A model generated the notes under the pieces. It was given only the letters and a program-made list of their open reading frames with translations, searched no databases and was not told where the DNA came from. A stretch of DNA of 53,382 nt from Thermoleophilia bacterium (GTDB lineage: Bacteria > Actinomycetota > Thermoleophilia > Miltoncostaeales > Miltoncostaeaceae), in the NCBI GenBank assembly GCA_025455865.1, contig JALOLS010000002.1, positions 1 to 53,382 of the forward strand, given 5' to 3'. Shown piece by piece: positions 29,582 through 43,011 of the stretch; the stretch's first letter is position 1; every line of letters starts with the position of its first letter. The position numbers were made by a program, and so were the translations under genes.

Positions 29582-30064
29582 CTAGCGGGCGAGCGCCCGG
29601 AGCACCTTCGGGGGCAGCACCGCCGTGAGGGTCCCCGCGCCCATCCGCGGCGCCGGCAGGTCGACCATCGCCGCACCGCCCTTGCGGAAGGGCACCAGCG
29701 CGCCGGTGAGGGCGGCGAGCGCGTCGGAGAGGTCGGGCTGGTGTCCGCAGGCCAGCAGGCACCCGACCCCGGGATGCCCGATCAGGATGTCCACGAGCTC
29801 GTCGGGATCCATGCCCGGGCGCATCCGGTCGTCGGGCTCGAGCGTCCCGCCCACGGCGGCCCGGATGATCTCCGCGGTCTGCCGGCATCGCGGGAGCGGG
29901 CTGGTGACGATGACCTCGGGGGCCACGCCGATCGCCGCGAGCCCGGCCGCGGCCCGGCGCATGCGCTCGGCGCCCTCGGCGGTGAGCTCGCGCGGCTCGT
30001 CGCCCCAGCGGGTGCGCGGGCCGGGGTCCTCGGCGACCCCGTGGCGGACGAGGATGAGCTCCAT
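29582..30064 (-). CDS. sixA: SixA-like phosphohistidine phosphatase
   Basis: 160-residue histidine phosphatase. The catalytic LVRHGVAED sits at the N-terminus. The second Arg and His regions are TSPLPRCRQTAEII and ACGHQPDLS. Small SixA proteins dephosphorylate phospho-His on phosphotransfer domains; here the target could equally be a metabolite. ATG 30064 overlaps the copC-copD stop (TGATG). Confidence 0.88.
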   Translation of the reverse strand: MELILVRHGVAEDPGPRTRWGDEPRELTAEGAERMRRAAAGLAAIGVAPEVIVTSPLPRCRQTAEIIRAAVGGTLEPDDRMRPGMDPDELVDILIGHPGVGCLLACGHQPDLSDALAALTGALVPFRKGGAAMVDLPAPRMGAGTLTAVLPPKVLRALAR

Positions 30065-31521
30065 CAGGTGCGGCCCGGCACCTGGGCGACCAGCAGGGCG
30101 GCCACGCCGACCACCACCAGCGCGAGCAGGAGCTCGGCCCCGAGGGAGGTGCGGACCATCCGGAGCGTCGCGGCGTTCGGGCGCTTGACCGCGCGGAGGG
30201 CGGTCACCACCTTGCGGTTGCGCAGGGCGAGGAACCCGATGGGCGCGAGCAGCAGCAGCTTGAGGATGATGCTCCGCCCGTAGGCGGTGTCCCAGAGCTG
30301 GGCCGGGTCGCTGAGCTGGCCCACGGCGCGGGCGACCCCGGTCACCAGGGCCACCCCCACCGCGACCAGGGCCACCCGGGAGAACCGGGCGAGCACGACG
30401 GCCGACACGGCCCGGCCGCCCATGCCGGCGACCCGCGGCAGCCGCCAGAGCGCGACCGCGACGATCGCAAGGCCGGCGACCCAGACGGCGATGGCGCTCG
30501 CGTGGATGGCGTCGAGGGGGATCTGCACCCGCGGCCAGGGCGCCGCGGAGGCGTGGCCCTGGTAGGAGATCGACCCCAGGGCGACCACCGCGAGGCCGAG
30601 CATCGCCAGCCCCGGGACCCGCCGGCCGGCGGCATCGGCCGGCCGGGGCGCCTCGTCGGAGCCGAACTCGGCCAGGAACTGCCACACCCCGATCGCGAAC
30701 AGCACGAACAGGAGCGCGGCGCGCAGCTGCAGGATGCCCCCGAACCGGGTGTCGCCGAGCACGCGGGCGATCCCGCCGGGGTCCCCGAGCGCCCCCCACA
30801 CGCTGGTGCCCAGCGCGCTCGCGCTCTTGACCGCCAGGAGGTACCCCTCGGCGAGCATGGCCCCGACCGCGAGGACCCCGAACGCCATCCAGAAGGAGTC
30901 CCGCCCCCAGCCGAGCGACGCCGACGCCTCGCCGGGGGTGAGCTCGGGCGGTCGCCGCCAGGCCGGGCGCCACACCAGCCAGCGGAAGGCCAGCAGGCCG
31001 ACCAGCCCGCCGATGCCGGCCAGCTCCAGGAAGCGCGCCACGACCGCCCAGGCGCCGGTCTCGCTGGGGCCGGTCCCCCCGCCGCCCGGCCCGCCCAGGA
31101 AGGGCTCGCCCGGAGGGCCGCTCCCCACCGCGAAGACCAGCGCCCCGGTGATCACGTGGGCGTCGGCCGACACGATGCGGAAGCGCGTGGTGTAGGTGCC
31201 CCCGACCAGGTCCGGCCGCAGCGGGACCTCGATCGCCGAGGCCTCGCCCGGCACCTTGCGCCCCTCGCCGGCGGTCACCGCGTTGCCCCGCTCGTCGACC
31301 ACGTCCAGGTCGGAGCCCTGCAGGAGCTGCACGGGCTCGGAGAAGCGCAGGACCACCTTCTCCGGGGACGACGCGATCACCGCGCCCGGCTGCGGGTCGG
31401 CCGCCACCAGCACCGCGTGGGCGTCGGCCCGGGCGGCGGCGAACGCCAGCAGGGCCAGCAGGGCGAGGATCAGGGCGACGGGGCCGGCCTGGGGCAGGGC
31501 GCGGCGGCGGGTGACGCTCAC
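30064..31521 (-). CDS. CopC-CopD fusion, copper resistance or uptake
   Basis: 485 residues. A signal peptide ends before AHAVLVAADPQPGA, the CopC beta-sandwich whose first His binds copper. The second CopC copper site is SADAHVITGAL. From about residue 150 on there are eight hydrophobic helices of the CopD membrane domain. Predicted job: bind copper outside the membrane and pass it in. GTG 31521 is 8 bases after TAACGT, so the message is probably leaderless. It is divergent from fabI. Confidence 0.9.
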   Translation of the reverse strand: MSVTRRRALPQAGPVALILALLALLAFAAARADAHAVLVAADPQPGAVIASSPEKVVLRFSEPVQLLQGSDLDVVDERGNAVTAGEGRKVPGEASAIEVPLRPDLVGGTYTTRFRIVSADAHVITGALVFAVGSGPPGEPFLGGPGGGGTGPSETGAWAVVARFLELAGIGGLVGLLAFRWLVWRPAWRRPPELTPGEASASLGWGRDSFWMAFGVLAVGAMLAEGYLLAVKSASALGTSVWGALGDPGGIARVLGDTRFGGILQLRAALLFVLFAIGVWQFLAEFGSDEAPRPADAAGRRVPGLAMLGLAVVALGSISYQGHASAAPWPRVQIPLDAIHASAIAVWVAGLAIVAVALWRLPRVAGMGGRAVSAVVLARFSRVALVAVGVALVTGVARAVGQLSDPAQLWDTAYGRSIILKLLLLAPIGFLALRNRKVVTALRAVKRPNAATLRMVRTSLGAELLLALVVVGVAALLVAQVPGRT

Positions 31522-31529
31522 GGCGTCGG

Positions 31530-31535
31530 ACGTTA
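31530..31535 (-). promoter_or_regulatory. -10 box (TAACGT) for copC-copD
   Basis: TAACGT on the minus strand ends 8 bases before GTG 31521, with no Shine-Dalgarno. Confidence 0.45.
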
Positions 31536-31614
31536 TCCCCACCGGCGCCGACGCGCATCCCGGACGGGGCCCGGTTGCTAGCGTCCCGCGGCCGTCGGAG
31601 GGAGGAGGAGGGAC

Positions 31615-32394
31615 ATGGGGGATCTCGTCGCCGGGCGCACCGCGCTCGTGGTCGGGGTGGCGAACAAGCGCAGCCTGGCCTGGGGGATCGCCCAGCGGCT
31701 CGACGCCGAGGGCGCCCGGGTGGTGCTGACCTATCAGAACGAGCGCACCGAGCGGGACGTGCGCCGGCTCGGGGAGACGCTCACGGGCATCGCCGGGTTC
31801 CTGCCCATGGACGTCCAGGACGACGCCCAGGTCACATCGGCCGTCGCGGGCGCCGCGGAGATGCTCGGCGGGGGCATCGACGTGCTGGTCCACGCGGTGG
31901 CGTTCGCCCGGGCGGAGGACCTGGGCGGCCGCTACGTCGACACCCCGCGCGACGGCTTCCAGCTCGCGGTCGACGTCTCGGCCTACTCGCTCACCGCGCT
32001 CGCGCGCACCGCCGAGCCGTTCATGCGGGGGCGCGACGCGGCGATCGTGACGCTCAGCTACATCGCCGCCGAGCGGGCGGTGCCGGGCTACAACGTCATG
32101 GGCATCGCCAAGTCCACGCTGGAGTCCATCGTGCGCTACCTCGCCTGGGACCTCGGCCCGGAGGGCATCCGGGTGAACGCGGTCTCCGCGGGGCCGGTCC
32201 GCACGCTGGCCGCGCGGTCGATCCCCGGCTTCGGCGACATGGCCGGCGCGGCGGCCGCCCGCTCGCCGCTGCGCCGCGAGGTCGACGCCGACGAGGTCGC
32301 CGACGGGGCGCTCTTCCTGTGCTCGCCGCTCGCCCGCGGCGTGACCGGCCACGTCCTCTACGTCGACGCCGGCTTCCATGCGATGGGGCTCTAG
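31615..32394 (+). CDS. fabI: Enoyl-[acyl-carrier-protein] reductase (NADH)
   Basis: 259-residue short-chain dehydrogenase of the FabI type, reducing enoyl-ACP in fatty-acid elongation. The nucleotide motif is GVANKRSLAWGIA (about 14-26). The catalytic pair is Tyr159 and Lys166 in YNVMGIAK, and Tyr149 is also in place. The end LYVDAGFHAMGL is typical. GGAGGAGGAGGG gives a strong ribosome-binding site before ATG 31615. It is a likely triclosan/isoniazid-type target by family. Confidence 0.94.
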   Translation: MGDLVAGRTALVVGVANKRSLAWGIAQRLDAEGARVVLTYQNERTERDVRRLGETLTGIAGFLPMDVQDDAQVTSAVAGAAEMLGGGIDVLVHAVAFARAEDLGGRYVDTPRDGFQLAVDVSAYSLTALARTAEPFMRGRDAAIVTLSYIAAERAVPGYNVMGIAKSTLESIVRYLAWDLGPEGIRVNAVSAGPVRTLAARSIPGFGDMAGAAAARSPLRREVDADEVADGALFLCSPLARGVTGHVLYVDAGFHAMGL

Positions 32395-32613: not shown

Positions 32614-33042
32614 ATCCGGATCTCCGCCAAGGCCGACTACGCCGTCCGCGCCATGCTGGTCCTCGCCCGCCTGGGGCGGGGCGGCCGGCCGGTCAAGGTC
32701 GAGCGGGTGGCCCGCGAGGGCGGCATCCCGCCCAAGTTCCTCGAGGGGATCCTCGCCGAGCTGCGGCGGGCGGGCATGGTCGAGAGCAAGCGCGGGGCGG
32801 AGGGCGGCTACTGGCTCGCCCGCCCGCCCGCGGACCTCTCGGTGGCCGACGTGGTGCGGGTGATCGACGGCCCCCCGGTGCTGGTGGCCGGCCGGGAGCC
32901 CGCCGAGCTGGCCTACCCGACGGCGCTCGGCGGCCTCGCCGAGGTGTGGGCGGCGGCCGGCGCGGCCGGGCTCGCGGTGATGGAGGACGCCCGCCTGGAC
33001 CGCCTGGCCGTCCGCGACCCCGCTCCCGACTTCCAGATCTGA
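32614..33042 (+). CDS. Rrf2-family transcriptional regulator
   Basis: 142 residues with the Rrf2 winged helix: RISAKADYAVRAMLVLA at the N-terminus, GIPPKFLEGILAELRRAGMV and KRGAEGGYWLARP. There is no Cys, so it lacks the iron-sulfur cluster of IscR-type members and is more like CymR. Family members begin MRISAKADYA. Here the codon at the Met position is ATC (32614-32616), with GGGAG 5 bases upstream. The only canonical in-frame start is TTG 32509, which would add 35 residues read from the repeat-like gap. I favour ATC. A metallophosphoesterase gene follows 8 bases later. Confidence 0.85.
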   Translation: MRISAKADYAVRAMLVLARLGRGGRPVKVERVAREGGIPPKFLEGILAELRRAGMVESKRGAEGGYWLARPPADLSVADVVRVIDGPPVLVAGREPAELAYPTALGGLAEVWAAAGAAGLAVMEDARLDRLAVRDPAPDFQI

Positions 33043-34972: not shown

Positions 34973-35197
34973 ATGACCGCCGACCTCGCCTACGCCTTCC
35001 GCACCCCCGAGCAGGACCTCGGTCGGGCCGTGGCCGACTACCTCGCCGTCTCGCGGGGCGCGCACCTGTACTCCGACGCCGACGCGCACGCGGCGGCCGA
35101 GCAGCGGGCGTGGGACCGGCTCCAGGCGCTCCGGGCGCGGAGCGCGGGCAGGCAGCCCGCGGCCACCCCCGAGACCGCGGGGGCCGCCGCCGAGTAG
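34973..35197 (+). CDS. Small hypothetical protein
   Basis: 74 residues, mostly helical and Ala-rich (DLGRAVADYLAVSRGAHLYSDADAHAA split by a polar turn), with a low-complexity end. CAGGGAAC precedes ATG 34973, and a recognisable promoter lies upstream. No family recognised. It converges on the sensor kinase gene 14 bases later. Confidence 0.6.
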   Translation: MTADLAYAFRTPEQDLGRAVADYLAVSRGAHLYSDADAHAAAEQRAWDRLQALRARSAGRQPAATPETAGAAAE

Positions 35198-35211: not shown

Positions 35212-37959
35212 TCAGGCCCGCGGCTCGGCCGTCCCGCCGAAGCCGGACGTGTCGAGCTCGACGACGACGGTGCATCCCTGGCCGGCGGCCGACTCGATCT
35301 GGAGCTCGCCGCCGAGCAGGGCCACCCGCTCGCTGATGCCGACCAGGCCGAGCCGGCGCGTGGGGGCGTCGGGGTCGAACCCCCGGCCGTTGTCCTCGAC
35401 CATGACCCGCACCCGGCCGCCGTGGCGGCGGGCCATCACGCTCACCGCCGTGGCCCCCGAGTGCCGGGCCACGTTGGTGAGCGCCTCCTGCACGACGCGG
35501 AACAGCGTGATCTGGACCGCCTCGGGCAGGTCCGCGGGCAGGTCCTCCAGCGACACGTCGACCTCGATGGGCGCGCTCTCGCGCAGGCGGTCGGCCTGGC
35601 GCTCCAGCGCGCTGGCCAGGCCGTGCTCGTGCAGCCCGGACGGCCGCAGCCGGGTCGCCAGGTCCCGGAGCCCGACGCTGGCGGCGTTGACCGCCCGGCG
35701 CAGCTCGGCCAGGCGCTCGCGCCCCGGGGCGTCGTCCACGTGGCCCTCGAGCGCCCGCAGGTGGAGCGCGATCGCGGTGAGGACCTGCCCGGCCTCGTCG
35801 TGCAGCTCCCGGGCGACCCGGGCCCGCTCGGCCTCCTGCGCCTCGATCGCCCGCCTGAGCCCCTCGGCGGCCGCGCGCTCGCGCACCCGGGCGGCCTGCA
35901 CCGCGGCGGAGGCCAGCAGCCGCTCGCGCTCGGCCGCGAACGTGCGGGCGTTGGCCACCGCGACGGCCGCCTGGGCGGCCAGCGTCTCGGCCAGCCGCTC
36001 GTCGTCGGAGGTGAACGGCCCGCCCACCTTGTCGGTGAGGTAGAGGTTGCCGAAGACCTCGTCGCCCAGGGTGATCGGCACCCCGAGGAACGAGGCCATC
36101 TGGGGGTGGCCGGCCGGGAAGCCGCTCGAGGCCGGATGGCCGCCGATCCGCTCCACCCGCAGCGGTCGCGGATGCTCGATCAGCAGGCCGAGCAGCCCGC
36201 CCCCGTGCGGCGGCTCCCCGATGCGCGCGGCGGCGTCCTCATCGAGCCCGCTCCACAGGAACCGGGCCAGATGCGAGCCGTCGCCCGAGAGCACGCCGAG
36301 CGCCGCGTAGCGCGCCCCGAGCACCGCGCGGGCGGTCTCCAGCAGGCGCTGGAGCACGGTCTCGAGGTCCAGGCCGCTCGCGATGGTGATGCCGCTCTCG
36401 ACCAGGGCGGCCATGCGCGAGCGTGACTCGGCCTTGGCGATGGCGATCTCGGCCAGCCGGGCGAAGTGGGCCAGCCGCGGGGCGGCGTCGGGCGGGAGCG
36501 CGCGCGGGGCGTGGGCGCTCGCGCAGATGGCCCCCCAGGGCTCCTGGAAGGCGGTGATGAGGACCGCCACGGCGGCCGGCGGCCCGGGGTCGGGGGCGCT
36601 CGCCGTCCCGCCCGTGCGGCGGGCCTGCAGGGCCAGCGCGGCGGGCACGGCCCCGGTCTCGCCCGGCGCCTCGGTGCCCCAGGCGCCCAGGCGTCCCGTG
36701 CCCCCGCCGGGGGTGAAGCGGAGGACCTGCCCGAGGTCGGCGTCCAGCAGGCGCGCGGCCTCCTCGGCGATCAGCTCCGCGAGCTCGTCGGTGTCGCCGC
36801 CGCTCGCCACCAGCGCGGCCACCCGGAGCAGCGCCGACTCCTCCGCCTCGCGGTCGCGCAGCGCCCGCTCCAGGCGCGCCCGGGCGGACAGGTCGCGCAC
36901 GGTGGCCACGTGACCGCCGAGCGCCCCGGCCGGATCGACGAGCGGGGCCACCCGCACCACCGCGGGCAGCCGTGAGCCGTCGCCGCGCACCAGGCCGACG
37001 GTGACCTCCCGGGGGCCGGCGGCGTGCCCGCCGCTCATCCCGTGGCCGACCAGCGGGGAGCGGTCGGCCGGCCAGAACGGATACGGCGGGACGGCCCCCA
37101 CCACACGGTCGCGCGACAGGCCCACGGCGTCCAGGAACCGCTCGCTCGCGTGGACGACGGCCTGCCGGCGGTCCAGCACCAGCAGCCCGTCCTGGGCCGC
37201 CTCCCGCAGCGCCGCGAGCTCGGCCCGGTCGTGACGGGCCGCCTCGCGCTCGTGGGCGCCGGCGAGCGCGGCGGCGGCGAGGTCGGCGAGGTCGGCGAGC
37301 ACCTGCTCCGCCCCGGGGGCCAGGCCGGCGCCGTCGGCGGCGGCGCACACCAGCACCCCCCACGGGTCCGGCGGGGGGCCGAGGGGGGCGGCGATCACGG
37401 TGCCGCCCGCCGGGTCGGCCAGGCGCACGGCGCCGCCCGTCTCGCGCACCCGCCGCGCGGCGTCGTCGGGCAGCGGCACGGCCGCGCCGGCCCCCGCGCT
37501 CCAGCGGGCGACCTCGCCCATGCCCCCGGCCAGCCGGACCACCGCGGCCCGGTCGGCGCCGGTGAGCCGCGCCGCCTGCTCGGCCACCAGGTGGGCCAGC
37601 TGCCGCTCGCCGGCCCCCCCGGAGGGCGCCGGGCGCCGCCCGCCGGGCCGCGGGTGCAGGGAGACCGTGACCAGGTCCCCCGCCGGCACCGCGCGGAGGT
37701 CGAGCCCGTCCTCGCGGCCCTCCCAGGCCCGGCCGGCGGCGGCGGCCGCGAGCAGCGCGGTGCGGGTGGCCGGGGCGTCGAGGATGCCCGGCCGCGCCTG
37801 GAGCAGTGCGGCGGCGCCCGGGCTCGCCGCCAGCGGCTCCAGGCCCACCGGCTCGCCGGCCTCGTCGCGCGCCACCCGGAGCACGGCCACCCGCTCGCTC
37901 ACCGCGGCGAGCACGCCGGCCACCGGGTCGGTGGCCGCGGAGGGCGGGGAGGGCGACAT
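35212..37959 (-). CDS. Multi-sensor histidine kinase with DevS-like heme GAF domain
   Basis: 915 residues, no transmembrane segment, so a soluble sensor. Order: N-terminal PAS/GAF-like region (about 1-235), PAS (about 250-360), a GAF (about 375-510), a DevS/DosT-type GAF (about 520-675), HisKA_3 with phospho-acceptor His720 (ARELHDEAGQ) and HATPase_c (EALTNVARHS, EDNGRGFD). The fourth sensor segment matches mycobacterial DevS: GLLIEHPRPLR, HPASSGFPAGHPQM, FLGVPI and GNLYLTDK. His618 and Tyr640 fall where DevS has heme-ligand His149 and distal Tyr171. It should bind heme and sense O2, NO or CO (inference). ATG 37959 has GGGAG upstream. A NarL regulator lies 1.5 kb away. Confidence 0.92.
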   Translation of the reverse strand: MSPSPPSAATDPVAGVLAAVSERVAVLRVARDEAGEPVGLEPLAASPGAAALLQARPGILDAPATRTALLAAAAAGRAWEGREDGLDLRAVPAGDLVTVSLHPRPGGRRPAPSGGAGERQLAHLVAEQAARLTGADRAAVVRLAGGMGEVARWSAGAGAAVPLPDDAARRVRETGGAVRLADPAGGTVIAAPLGPPPDPWGVLVCAAADGAGLAPGAEQVLADLADLAAAALAGAHEREAARHDRAELAALREAAQDGLLVLDRRQAVVHASERFLDAVGLSRDRVVGAVPPYPFWPADRSPLVGHGMSGGHAAGPREVTVGLVRGDGSRLPAVVRVAPLVDPAGALGGHVATVRDLSARARLERALRDREAEESALLRVAALVASGGDTDELAELIAEEAARLLDADLGQVLRFTPGGGTGRLGAWGTEAPGETGAVPAALALQARRTGGTASAPDPGPPAAVAVLITAFQEPWGAICASAHAPRALPPDAAPRLAHFARLAEIAIAKAESRSRMAALVESGITIASGLDLETVLQRLLETARAVLGARYAALGVLSGDGSHLARFLWSGLDEDAAARIGEPPHGGGLLGLLIEHPRPLRVERIGGHPASSGFPAGHPQMASFLGVPITLGDEVFGNLYLTDKVGGPFTSDDERLAETLAAQAAVAVANARTFAAERERLLASAAVQAARVRERAAAEGLRRAIEAQEAERARVARELHDEAGQVLTAIALHLRALEGHVDDAPGRERLAELRRAVNAASVGLRDLATRLRPSGLHEHGLASALERQADRLRESAPIEVDVSLEDLPADLPEAVQITLFRVVQEALTNVARHSGATAVSVMARRHGGRVRVMVEDNGRGFDPDAPTRRLGLVGISERVALLGGELQIESAAGQGCTVVVELDTSGFGGTAEPRA

Positions 37960-38004: not shown

Positions 38005-39366
38005 GTGGTGGCACGGTTCGGGGTGGTGCCCCCCCGGACCGCCACCGGCCTTCGCGCCTTCCGCCGCGACCCGCTCGCCGCCCTCGAGGCCGCGGCGGCC
38101 GACGGCGAGGAGGTCGTGCGCCGGCGCGCCGGGCCGCTCCGGGTCGCCATGGCGACGACCCCGGCGGCGGCGACCGAGCTCCTGGTGGCGAACGCGGGGG
38201 CGCTGGACAAGGGCCTGGGGCTCGAACGGGCGCGCCTGCTGATCGGTGACGGGCTGCTCACCGCCGGCACGCCGGTGCACGACGCGCACCTGGCCGAGGT
38301 CCGGCCGGCGCTGCGCCGCGGCGCGGTCGCCGGGCACGCCGGCCGCATGGCGGCGCTGGCCGGCGCCTGTGCGGCCCGGCTGCCGGAGGGCGAGCCGGCC
38401 GACCTGGCGGCCGAGAGCGCCCGCCTGGCCCTGGCCACCGCCGGCCTCACCCTGTTCGGGGCCGACCTCGACGCCCACGCCGCCGACGTGGGCGGGGCGC
38501 TCGCGGAGGCCCTGGACTTCTTCGACCGCCCGTCGCTCCTGGTCACCGACCTGGCGGCGCGGCTGCCCCTCCCGGCCGGCCGGCGGTTCCGGGCCGCGCG
38601 CGGGCGGCTCGACGCCACCGTGGCCGGGCTGGTGGCCGGCCGGGTCGCCGGGGCGCCCGGTGACGACCTGCTCGGCCGGCTCATCCGCGCCCGGGAGGCG
38701 GGACGGCTGGACGACCGGGCGGTCCGCGACGAGGTGCTCACCCTGCTCCTCGCCGGCCACGAGACCGTCGCGAACGCCCTGGCCTGGGCGCTCGCGCTGC
38801 TGGCCCACGACCCGGCCGCGCAGACCCGGCTGCACGCCGAGGTGGACGCGGTCCTGGGCGGCCGGCCGCCGGGAGCGGCCGACCTGGCGCACCTGCCGTG
38901 GACGCGCGCGGTGCTGCTCGAGGCCATGCGGCTCTATCCGCCGGCCTGGCTCATCGGGCGGCGGGTCCGGCGGCCGGTGGTGGTGCGCGGCACGCCGCTT
39001 GCGCCCGGCACGCTCGCGCTGGTGCCCCTCTGGGTGCTCCATCGCGACCCGCGCGCGGTGCCGGAGCCCGGCCGCTTCCTGCCCGGCCGGTTCGTGGCGG
39101 GCGACGACCCGCCGCCGCCCGGGCCGGGCTACCTGCCGTTCGGCGCCGGGCCCCGCCGCTGCGTGGGCCAGGCGTTCGCGCTCCAGGAGGGGGTCATCGC
39201 CCTGGCGACGCTCGCGGCCCGCCGGGAGTTCCGCCCCGCCGGGCCGATGCCCCGGCCGCTTCCGCGCATCACCCTGCGACCCGAGGGCGGCATGCCGCTC
39301 CTGGCCGTCCCGCGGGCCGCGGGCCTTCGGGCTTCCCGCAGGGACGATCAGCGGCCCCCCCGATGA
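38005..39366 (+). CDS. Cytochrome P450
   Basis: 453 residues. A heme-thiolate monooxygenase: I-helix oxygen motif AGHET (250-254), ExxR as EAMR (306-309), and Cys-ligand loop FGAGPRRCVG with Cys386. LYPPAWLIGRRV after ExxR resembles CYP families acting on fatty acids or terpenoids, but the substrate is not readable. The start at GTG 38005 (next GTG 38008) is chosen from the divergent gap; no Shine-Dalgarno is seen. It lies between the kinase and the response regulator. Confidence 0.93.
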   Translation: MVARFGVVPPRTATGLRAFRRDPLAALEAAAADGEEVVRRRAGPLRVAMATTPAAATELLVANAGALDKGLGLERARLLIGDGLLTAGTPVHDAHLAEVRPALRRGAVAGHAGRMAALAGACAARLPEGEPADLAAESARLALATAGLTLFGADLDAHAADVGGALAEALDFFDRPSLLVTDLAARLPLPAGRRFRAARGRLDATVAGLVAGRVAGAPGDDLLGRLIRAREAGRLDDRAVRDEVLTLLLAGHETVANALAWALALLAHDPAAQTRLHAEVDAVLGGRPPGAADLAHLPWTRAVLLEAMRLYPPAWLIGRRVRRPVVVRGTPLAPGTLALVPLWVLHRDPRAVPEPGRFLPGRFVAGDDPPPPGPGYLPFGAGPRRCVGQAFALQEGVIALATLAARREFRPAGPMPRPLPRITLRPEGGMPLLAVPRAAGLRASRRDDQRPPR

Positions 39367-39442: not shown

Positions 39443-40096
39443 ATGGCCCGGAACGGAAAGCTCAGGGTGCTCGTCGTCGACGACCACGCCGTGCTGCGCA
39501 CCGGGCTCTGCCTGCTGCTCGAGAGCGAGGGCGACATGGTCTGCGGGGGCGAGGCCGGGACGGCCGAGGAGGCCCTCGACGTGCTGGACGAGGCGCAGCC
39601 GGACGTCGTGGTCATCGACCTGGAGATGCCGGGCATGGGCGGGCTCGCGGGCATGGCCGAGATCCGCCGGCGCCGCCCGGACATCCCGGTGCTGGTGCTC
39701 TCGATGCACGACCACGCATCCGACGTGCGCCGCGCGTTCGCCGCCGGCGCGGCCGGCTACCTGGTCAAGCACGCGGCCGACCGGGACCTGTTCCAGGCCG
39801 TGCGCGCGGTCGCCCGGGGCGAGAGCTACCTCGACCCGAGCCTGGGGGCCAAGCTCGCCGAGCCGGTGGCGGCCATGAGCGCGGTCCAGTCGCTGTCGGC
39901 CCGCGAGCAGGAGGTCCTGCGCCTGGTGGCCCTCGGGCACACCAACCAGGAGGTCGCCGAGAGCCTCGGGGTGAGCCCCCGCACCGTGGAGAGCCGCCGG
40001 GCCCGCGTGGGCGAGAAGCTCGGCCTGGACTCGCGGGCCGACATGGTCAAGCTGGCGCTCGCGGCCGGCCTGCTGGACGACTACGTCTCGGTGTAG
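39443..40096 (+). CDS. NarL/LuxR-family response regulator
   Basis: 217 residues. The receiver domain has VVDDH (11-15), phospho-acceptor Asp59 (VVVIDLEMPG) and a conserved Lys in YLVKH. The C-terminal LuxR-type helix-turn-helix is LSAREQEVLRLVALGHTNQEVAESLGVS (about 152-180). GGAGGTG lies 6 bases before ATG 39443. Its natural partner is the HisKA_3 kinase at 35212-37959, since HisKA_3 kinases pair with NarL regulators. The P450 in between is a candidate target. Confidence 0.93.
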   Translation: MARNGKLRVLVVDDHAVLRTGLCLLLESEGDMVCGGEAGTAEEALDVLDEAQPDVVVIDLEMPGMGGLAGMAEIRRRRPDIPVLVLSMHDHASDVRRAFAAGAAGYLVKHAADRDLFQAVRAVARGESYLDPSLGAKLAEPVAAMSAVQSLSAREQEVLRLVALGHTNQEVAESLGVSPRTVESRRARVGEKLGLDSRADMVKLALAAGLLDDYVSV

Positions 40097-42534: not shown

Positions 42535-43011
42535 ATGGGCGGCCCCTTCACCCACATCGCCTGCTGCGTCGACGACTCGCCGGCCGGCATGGCCGCGCTC
42601 GCCGAGGCGGCGCGCCTGGCGGCCTTCGGGCCCGCCCGGCTCACCGTGGTCCACGTGGTGGAGCCCCCGTCGTTCGCCGGCGCGGTCATGAGCGGGGTCG
42701 CCGCGGCCTTCGGCGGCGGCGGGATGGTCGACGAGGCCGAGGGCCACCGGCAGGCGGCCGAGGCGTTCCTCGCGGCGGCGGTGGACGGCATCGAGGGGGC
42801 GCAGACGGTGCTGCTGGATCCGGCCCGCCACGACTCGGTGCCCGACGCGGTGTGCGACTGGGCCCGCGAGGAGGGCCCGGACCTGCTGGTGGCCGCCACC
42901 CACCGCGGCACGCTCGAGCGGGCGCGGCGGCTGGTCGGGTCGTTCAGCGGCCACCTGGCCCGGCATGCGCCCTGCCCGGTGCTGCTGGTGCCCCCGGGCG
43001 AGCCGGGGTGA
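42535..43011 (+). CDS. Universal stress protein (UspA family)
   Basis: 158 residues. A single Usp domain: CCVDDSPAGMAAL at the start, LTVVHVVEPP strand, DLLVAATHRG, and a C-terminal GSFSGHLARHAPCPVLLVP that stands for the ATP-binding loop in altered form. Usp genes are commonly controlled by DevS/DevR-type systems in mycobacteria. Whether the kinase at 35-38 kb controls this one is an inference from proximity only. Confidence 0.88.
   Translation: MGGPFTHIACCVDDSPAGMAALAEAARLAAFGPARLTVVHVVEPPSFAGAVMSGVAAAFGGGGMVDEAEGHRQAAEAFLAAAVDGIEGAQTVLLDPARHDSVPDAVCDWAREEGPDLLVAATHRGTLERARRLVGSFSGHLARHAPCPVLLVPPGEPG

Follow-up and report, generated by a model that had tools for sequence, protein, structure and literature searches.

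A putative DevS/DosT-type heme GAF domain joined directly to the kinase part of a multi-sensor histidine kinase from a Thermoleophilia bacterium

Most work on the heme-based sensor kinases DevS and DosT comes from mycobacteria, in which the parts played by Glu87, His89 and the second GAF domain (GAF-B) are disputed. Mutagenesis and the crystal structure identified His149 as the proximal heme ligand of DevS (DosS, Rv3132c, Mycobacterium tuberculosis), and Tyr171 is required for DevS to distinguish O2 from CO and NO (PMC4082495). Glu87 has been held responsible for the redox behaviour of DevS, and a network of Tyr171, Glu87 and His89 for its off state (PMC4082495, PMC9062744). DosT of M. tuberculosis forms a stable oxy complex (PMC4082495). 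A DevS/DosT orthologue outside the mycobacteria, OsdK of Streptomyces coelicolor, shares 41-42% identity with both DevS and DosT and is paired with a DevR-like regulator, OsdR; universal stress protein (Usp) genes mark the devR and osdR loci (PMC5069765).

The window, i.e. the whole stretch of 53,382 nucleotides analysed here, carried a sensor histidine kinase gene of 915 aa on the minus strand (35212-37959, ATG start). The domain order was an N-terminal region without assignment, GAF1, PAS, GAF2, heme GAF, HisKA_3 and HATPase, all the domains below lying on the minus strand. GAF1 (residues 120-232; 37264-37602) matched Pfam PF01590 with an E-value of 5e-5 on the segment, and PAS (residues 247-362; 36874-37221) matched PF08448 (E 7e-8) and PF00989 (E 9e-7). 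GAF2 (residues 389-508; 36436-36795) was weak, with PF13185 at E 2e-4, below the cut-off. No heme ligand was present in GAF1 or GAF2. An earlier note on this DNA had claimed PAS and further GAF-like sensors in addition to the heme domain, and these extra sensors proved real. The last sensor was the DevS/DosT-type heme GAF (residues 528-676; 35932-36378), assigned by phmmer, Foldseek and a tree, with a Pfam span of residues 531-668. It was followed by the HisKA_3 dimerisation domain (residues 711-776; 35632-35829; PF07730, E 1e-13), with the phospho-acceptor His720 in an ELHDEAGQ motif, and by HATPase_c (residues 816-904; 35248-35514; PF02518), with the N box at 825 and G boxes at 855 and 869. 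The HisKA_3 and HATPase boxes were all intact. The full-length fold predicted from the single sequence had a pLDDT of 41.7 and was left out of the analysis.

When the heme GAF was compared with all PDB chains by phmmer, the five best matches were GAF-A domains of DevS/DosT (E 3e-40 to 4e-39). The alignment was almost gap-free over residues 528-676, showing that this last GAF tracks DevS/DosT nearly segment by segment, as the earlier note had described. His618 (codon 36106-36108, minus strand) fell at the position of the ligand His149, and Tyr640 (codon 36040-36042, minus strand) at that of the distal Tyr171; the two residues were 22 positions apart in both proteins. Both were invariant in 126 of the 126 domains compared (101/101 plus 25 further loci): 20 from kinases in this genome and related ones, 81 from actinobacterial ORFs and 25 from other loci in the phylum. 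A peptide that includes the His served in part to select the actinobacterial ORFs, which taken alone would therefore be a biased set; the other two sets came from comparisons of whole proteins or domains. Neither the His nor the Tyr was found in GAF1 or GAF2 of the same protein or in GAF-B of the relatives, indicating that the pair is not a generic GAF feature. Alignment, spacing and invariance together upheld the proposed equivalence of both residues. The AlphaFold2 model of the domain had a pLDDT of 87.8, and Foldseek ranks 1-17 were occupied by DosS/DosT GAF-A only (rmsd 1.2-1.5 Å, mostly 1.2; E 2e-19 to 1e-17). The next GAF appeared at E 1e-8, about ten orders of magnitude weaker. The predicted fold was thus close to DosS/DosT alone, in line with the earlier note. 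Judged by sequence and modelled fold, the domain is a DevS/DosT-type heme GAF set in a kinase of unusual build, and it very likely binds heme.

We consider it probable that the protein acts as a soluble heme-based gas-sensor kinase of the DevS/DosT/OsdK kind. The third GAF would bind heme b through His618, and Tyr640 would hydrogen-bond the bound ligand. If it works like DosT, the kinase would be held inactive by O2 on the ferrous heme and would switch on when O2 is lost (or CO or NO binds). The C-terminal helix of the heme GAF would run straight into the dimerisation helices, with no DevS-like GAF-B in between, so that the state of the heme would be read out at His720. From there the phosphate would be handed to a NarL-type regulator acting on stress genes, Usp among them; the product of 39443-40096 and its paralogue encoded on contig C181 are the two candidates. 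Additional inputs would come from the GAF-PAS-GAF part in front.

The pocket resembled that of DosT more than that of DevS at the channel position. Where DevS has Glu87, the kinase has Gly555 (codon 36295-36297, minus strand), as in DosT (Gly85), which fits a stable oxy complex; the DevS His89 position is Leu557 here and Arg in DosT. Gly occupied the Glu87 position in 98/101 homologues and in 25/25 further loci, which suggests that this kinase has the common form of the pocket and that mycobacterial DevS is the exception. With Gly555 and Leu557 in its place, the Tyr171-Glu87-His89 hydrogen-bond relay of DevS was absent, and details of switching therefore cannot be copied from DevS. A redox sensor, in which the ferric or ferrous state of the heme rather than bound gas sets kinase activity, would share its fold and ligands with DevS, for which redox sensing has been argued by some authors (reviewed in PMC4082495). 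However, that proposal rests on Glu87 narrowing the channel (PMC4082495), and the replacement of Glu87 and His89 by Gly555 and Leu557 favours direct gas sensing of the DosT type; redox control is accordingly unlikely here. Of the "redox or gas integrator" of the earlier note, the gas half is favoured, whereas the redox half has become less likely.

Genes for HemL, HemB, a cytochrome b6-like protein and COX1 are present in the genome, indicating that heme proteins are in use. Ferrochelatase was not found in this genome, nor in 22 of the 24 other family genomes searched. A tandem radical SAM pair on contig C141 (AhbC-like/TIGR04053; L176 and L177; G000:C141:11070-13186) suggests that heme may be made by the siroheme route, which stays unproven since the AhbC and AhbD scores of these proteins were below the curated cut-offs. 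Since a genome without ferrochelatase could be limited in its heme supply, heme itself might be the signal, with loading of the pocket controlling the kinase as reported for mycobacterial PdtaS, which is inhibited by hemin (PMC11537054). A distal Tyr that serves diatomic ligands and is invariant together with the ligand His is, however, more than loading alone needs, and we regard such a heme- or iron-supply sensor as quite improbable.

The kinase differed from DevS in build. The two proteins have in common the fold of the heme GAF, the ligand His, the distal Tyr, a HisKA_3-type kinase and a Usp gene at the locus. However, DevS and most relatives carry, between heme GAF and kinase part, a second GAF of some 150 residues, whereas here the heme GAF adjoined the kinase part directly and the order GAF-A, GAF-B, HisKA_3, HATPase was not found. 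The heme GAF was also the last sensor rather than the first, with a PAS and two GAFs ahead of it; DosT, which shares the likenesses with DevS, likewise has GAF-B and no PAS. The picture of a DevS with more sensors added, as drawn in the earlier note, was therefore right about the extra PAS and GAFs but missed the absence of GAF-B. The direct joint was also present in 4 related genomes, in one actinobacterial MAG and in 10 of the 25 further loci across the phylum. The compact kinases of the same phylum (L142-L147, L150, L151, L163 and L167) share it and are encoded by ORFs of 385-530 aa, mostly too short for front sensors. About three changes on the tree were required for the direct-joint form within the related clade, indicating that GAF-B was probably lost (or gained) more than once there.

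In the front part, neither the PAS nor the segment 1-111 had a match in the other heme-GAF kinases of the 126-ORF set, and GAF1 and GAF2 had one weak outside match each. Stretches of residues 173-564 were matched by other multi-sensor kinases of the same genome at 36-43% identity; the front part was likely derived from such kinases by fusion. Because this PAS-containing part is unique to the protein among the homologues compared, and because Gly587 and some other positions differ from most relatives, the heme GAF could be seen as now mainly structural with control left to the front domains, but the domain still has His618, Tyr640, Gly555, Phe567 and the GFP-x2-HP-x-M stretch, and it is the one joined to the kinase, which makes this the least probable of the readings and a very doubtful one.

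Most relatives have a NarL-type regulator gene right next to that of the kinase. The window contained a NarL/LuxR-type regulator with Asp59 and Lys109 at 39443-40096 (plus strand), two genes from the kinase, which belongs to the family adjoining heme-GAF kinases in the relatives. It lies on the opposite strand to the kinase with a P450 gene in between, has a long branch in the tree and a diverged recognition helix. Its paralogue L129 (G000:C181:11025-11651) is better conserved, keeps the usual recognition helix and is syntenic (G021:C93) with the only such regulator of the nearest relative, G021. The regulator in the window is thus the probable but not certain partner of the kinase, and the C181 paralogue is a rival for this role.

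The intervening cytochrome P450 gene (38008-39366, plus strand; PF00067, E 5e-50) encodes the heme-Cys motif FGAGPRRCVG and begins roughly 48 bp away from where the kinase gene starts, in divergent orientation; its best PDB match was the putative P450 7wzl (E 1e-55). As a conserved partner it was rejected, being beside the kinase in 0/20 related loci and 1/80 actinobacterial loci. A Usp gene was found at 42535-43011 (plus strand; PF00582, E 1e-21). Among 22 relatives, 15 had Usp genes within 5 kb of the kinase, compared with 0.62 expected from Usp density; the relatives are not independent, so a formal probability would come out too small, and the excess is still large. The block of CopC/D, an Rrf2-family regulator (32617-33042, plus strand), phosphoesterase, small ORF, kinase and Usp was common to the nearest relative G021 (L110). 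Within this block, a CopC-CopD fusion protein (30064-32379) lies beside the Rrf2 regulator, a pairing kept in L110. The small ORF (34973-35194, about 74 aa, no Pfam match) lies between the phosphoesterase and the kinase, and its relatives occurred near kinase or regulator loci in L110, L129 and L130.

A 15-bp palindrome, TGCGG-N5-CCGCA, was present in 5 of 20 Usp upstream regions of the relatives (at most 4 in 100 shuffles) and was counted 12 times across 271 kb of kinase loci, compared with 1.4 expected. Of 11 sites examined, 8 were 57-120 bp upstream of kinase, regulator or Usp starts. Because Usp upstream regions had served for its discovery, independent evidence comes from the kinase and regulator sites alone, and 3 of the 8 were such sites outside the discovery set. 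Sites with an A/T-rich centre were located in L111 (3943, 6116), L112 (11740), L115 (3692), L117 (10649), L123 (176, 2610), L124 (6741, 9187) and L125 (5853). Scored by weight matrix, the top site in the window was TTCGGGCTTCCCGCA (39326-39340, plus strand), one mismatch from the palindrome and 110 bp upstream of the regulator ATG. In 1.09 Mb of this genome the palindrome was only mildly enriched, and it did not mark the other Usp genes there. We regard it as a candidate operator and a weak lead. Boxes of the DevR/OsdR type were rejected for the window: with up to one mismatch, GGGMC-N4-GKCCC had 42 matches compared with 69 expected, fewer than chance. In this respect the locus differs from that of OsdK/OsdR (PMC5069765), which it otherwise resembles as a DevS/DosT relative outside the mycobacteria with Usp genes around it. 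No WhiB was found in the genome. A tentative further reading is an ancient low-oxygen circuit of the DosRS kind across the phylum. The operator with its A/T-rich centre, preceding kinase, regulator and Usp genes, would be the circuit's own, and this genome would have rewired it by losing GAF-B, adding the PAS/GAF front end and placing a second, diverged regulator near the kinase.

A heme-GAF-plus-kinase query was matched by 49 of 149 sampled genomes of the same phylum, in a few cases through the kinase part only, so that roughly 30% have such a domain, and the DevS-type heme-GAF family is also widespread in Actinobacteria. The earlier note was correct in placing the kinase outside the mycobacteria, but this is nothing special in such a widespread family, as OsdK also illustrates. 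In the part of the literature covered by our search, DevS-type heme GAFs were not reported from Chloroflexi. In the tree, the heme GAF paired with its G021 orthologue (100/99), and both fell in a clade of the genome's class (99/97), which stands apart from the actinobacterial rows holding DevS and DosT. This nesting indicates an old divergence, and a recent transfer from mycobacteria was accordingly rejected.

The kind of domain is therefore known and widespread, and what is unusual is the GAF-B-less joint together with the PAS-containing front part. Here the common form of the pocket, with Gly at position 87 and no His89, is coupled to a kinase without GAF-B. The compact versions of the same phylum (about 385-420 aa) would serve as simple models of kinase switching by a heme GAF. 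The association with Usp genes suggests that hypoxia-stress wiring reaches beyond the actinobacterial rows that hold DevS and DosT.
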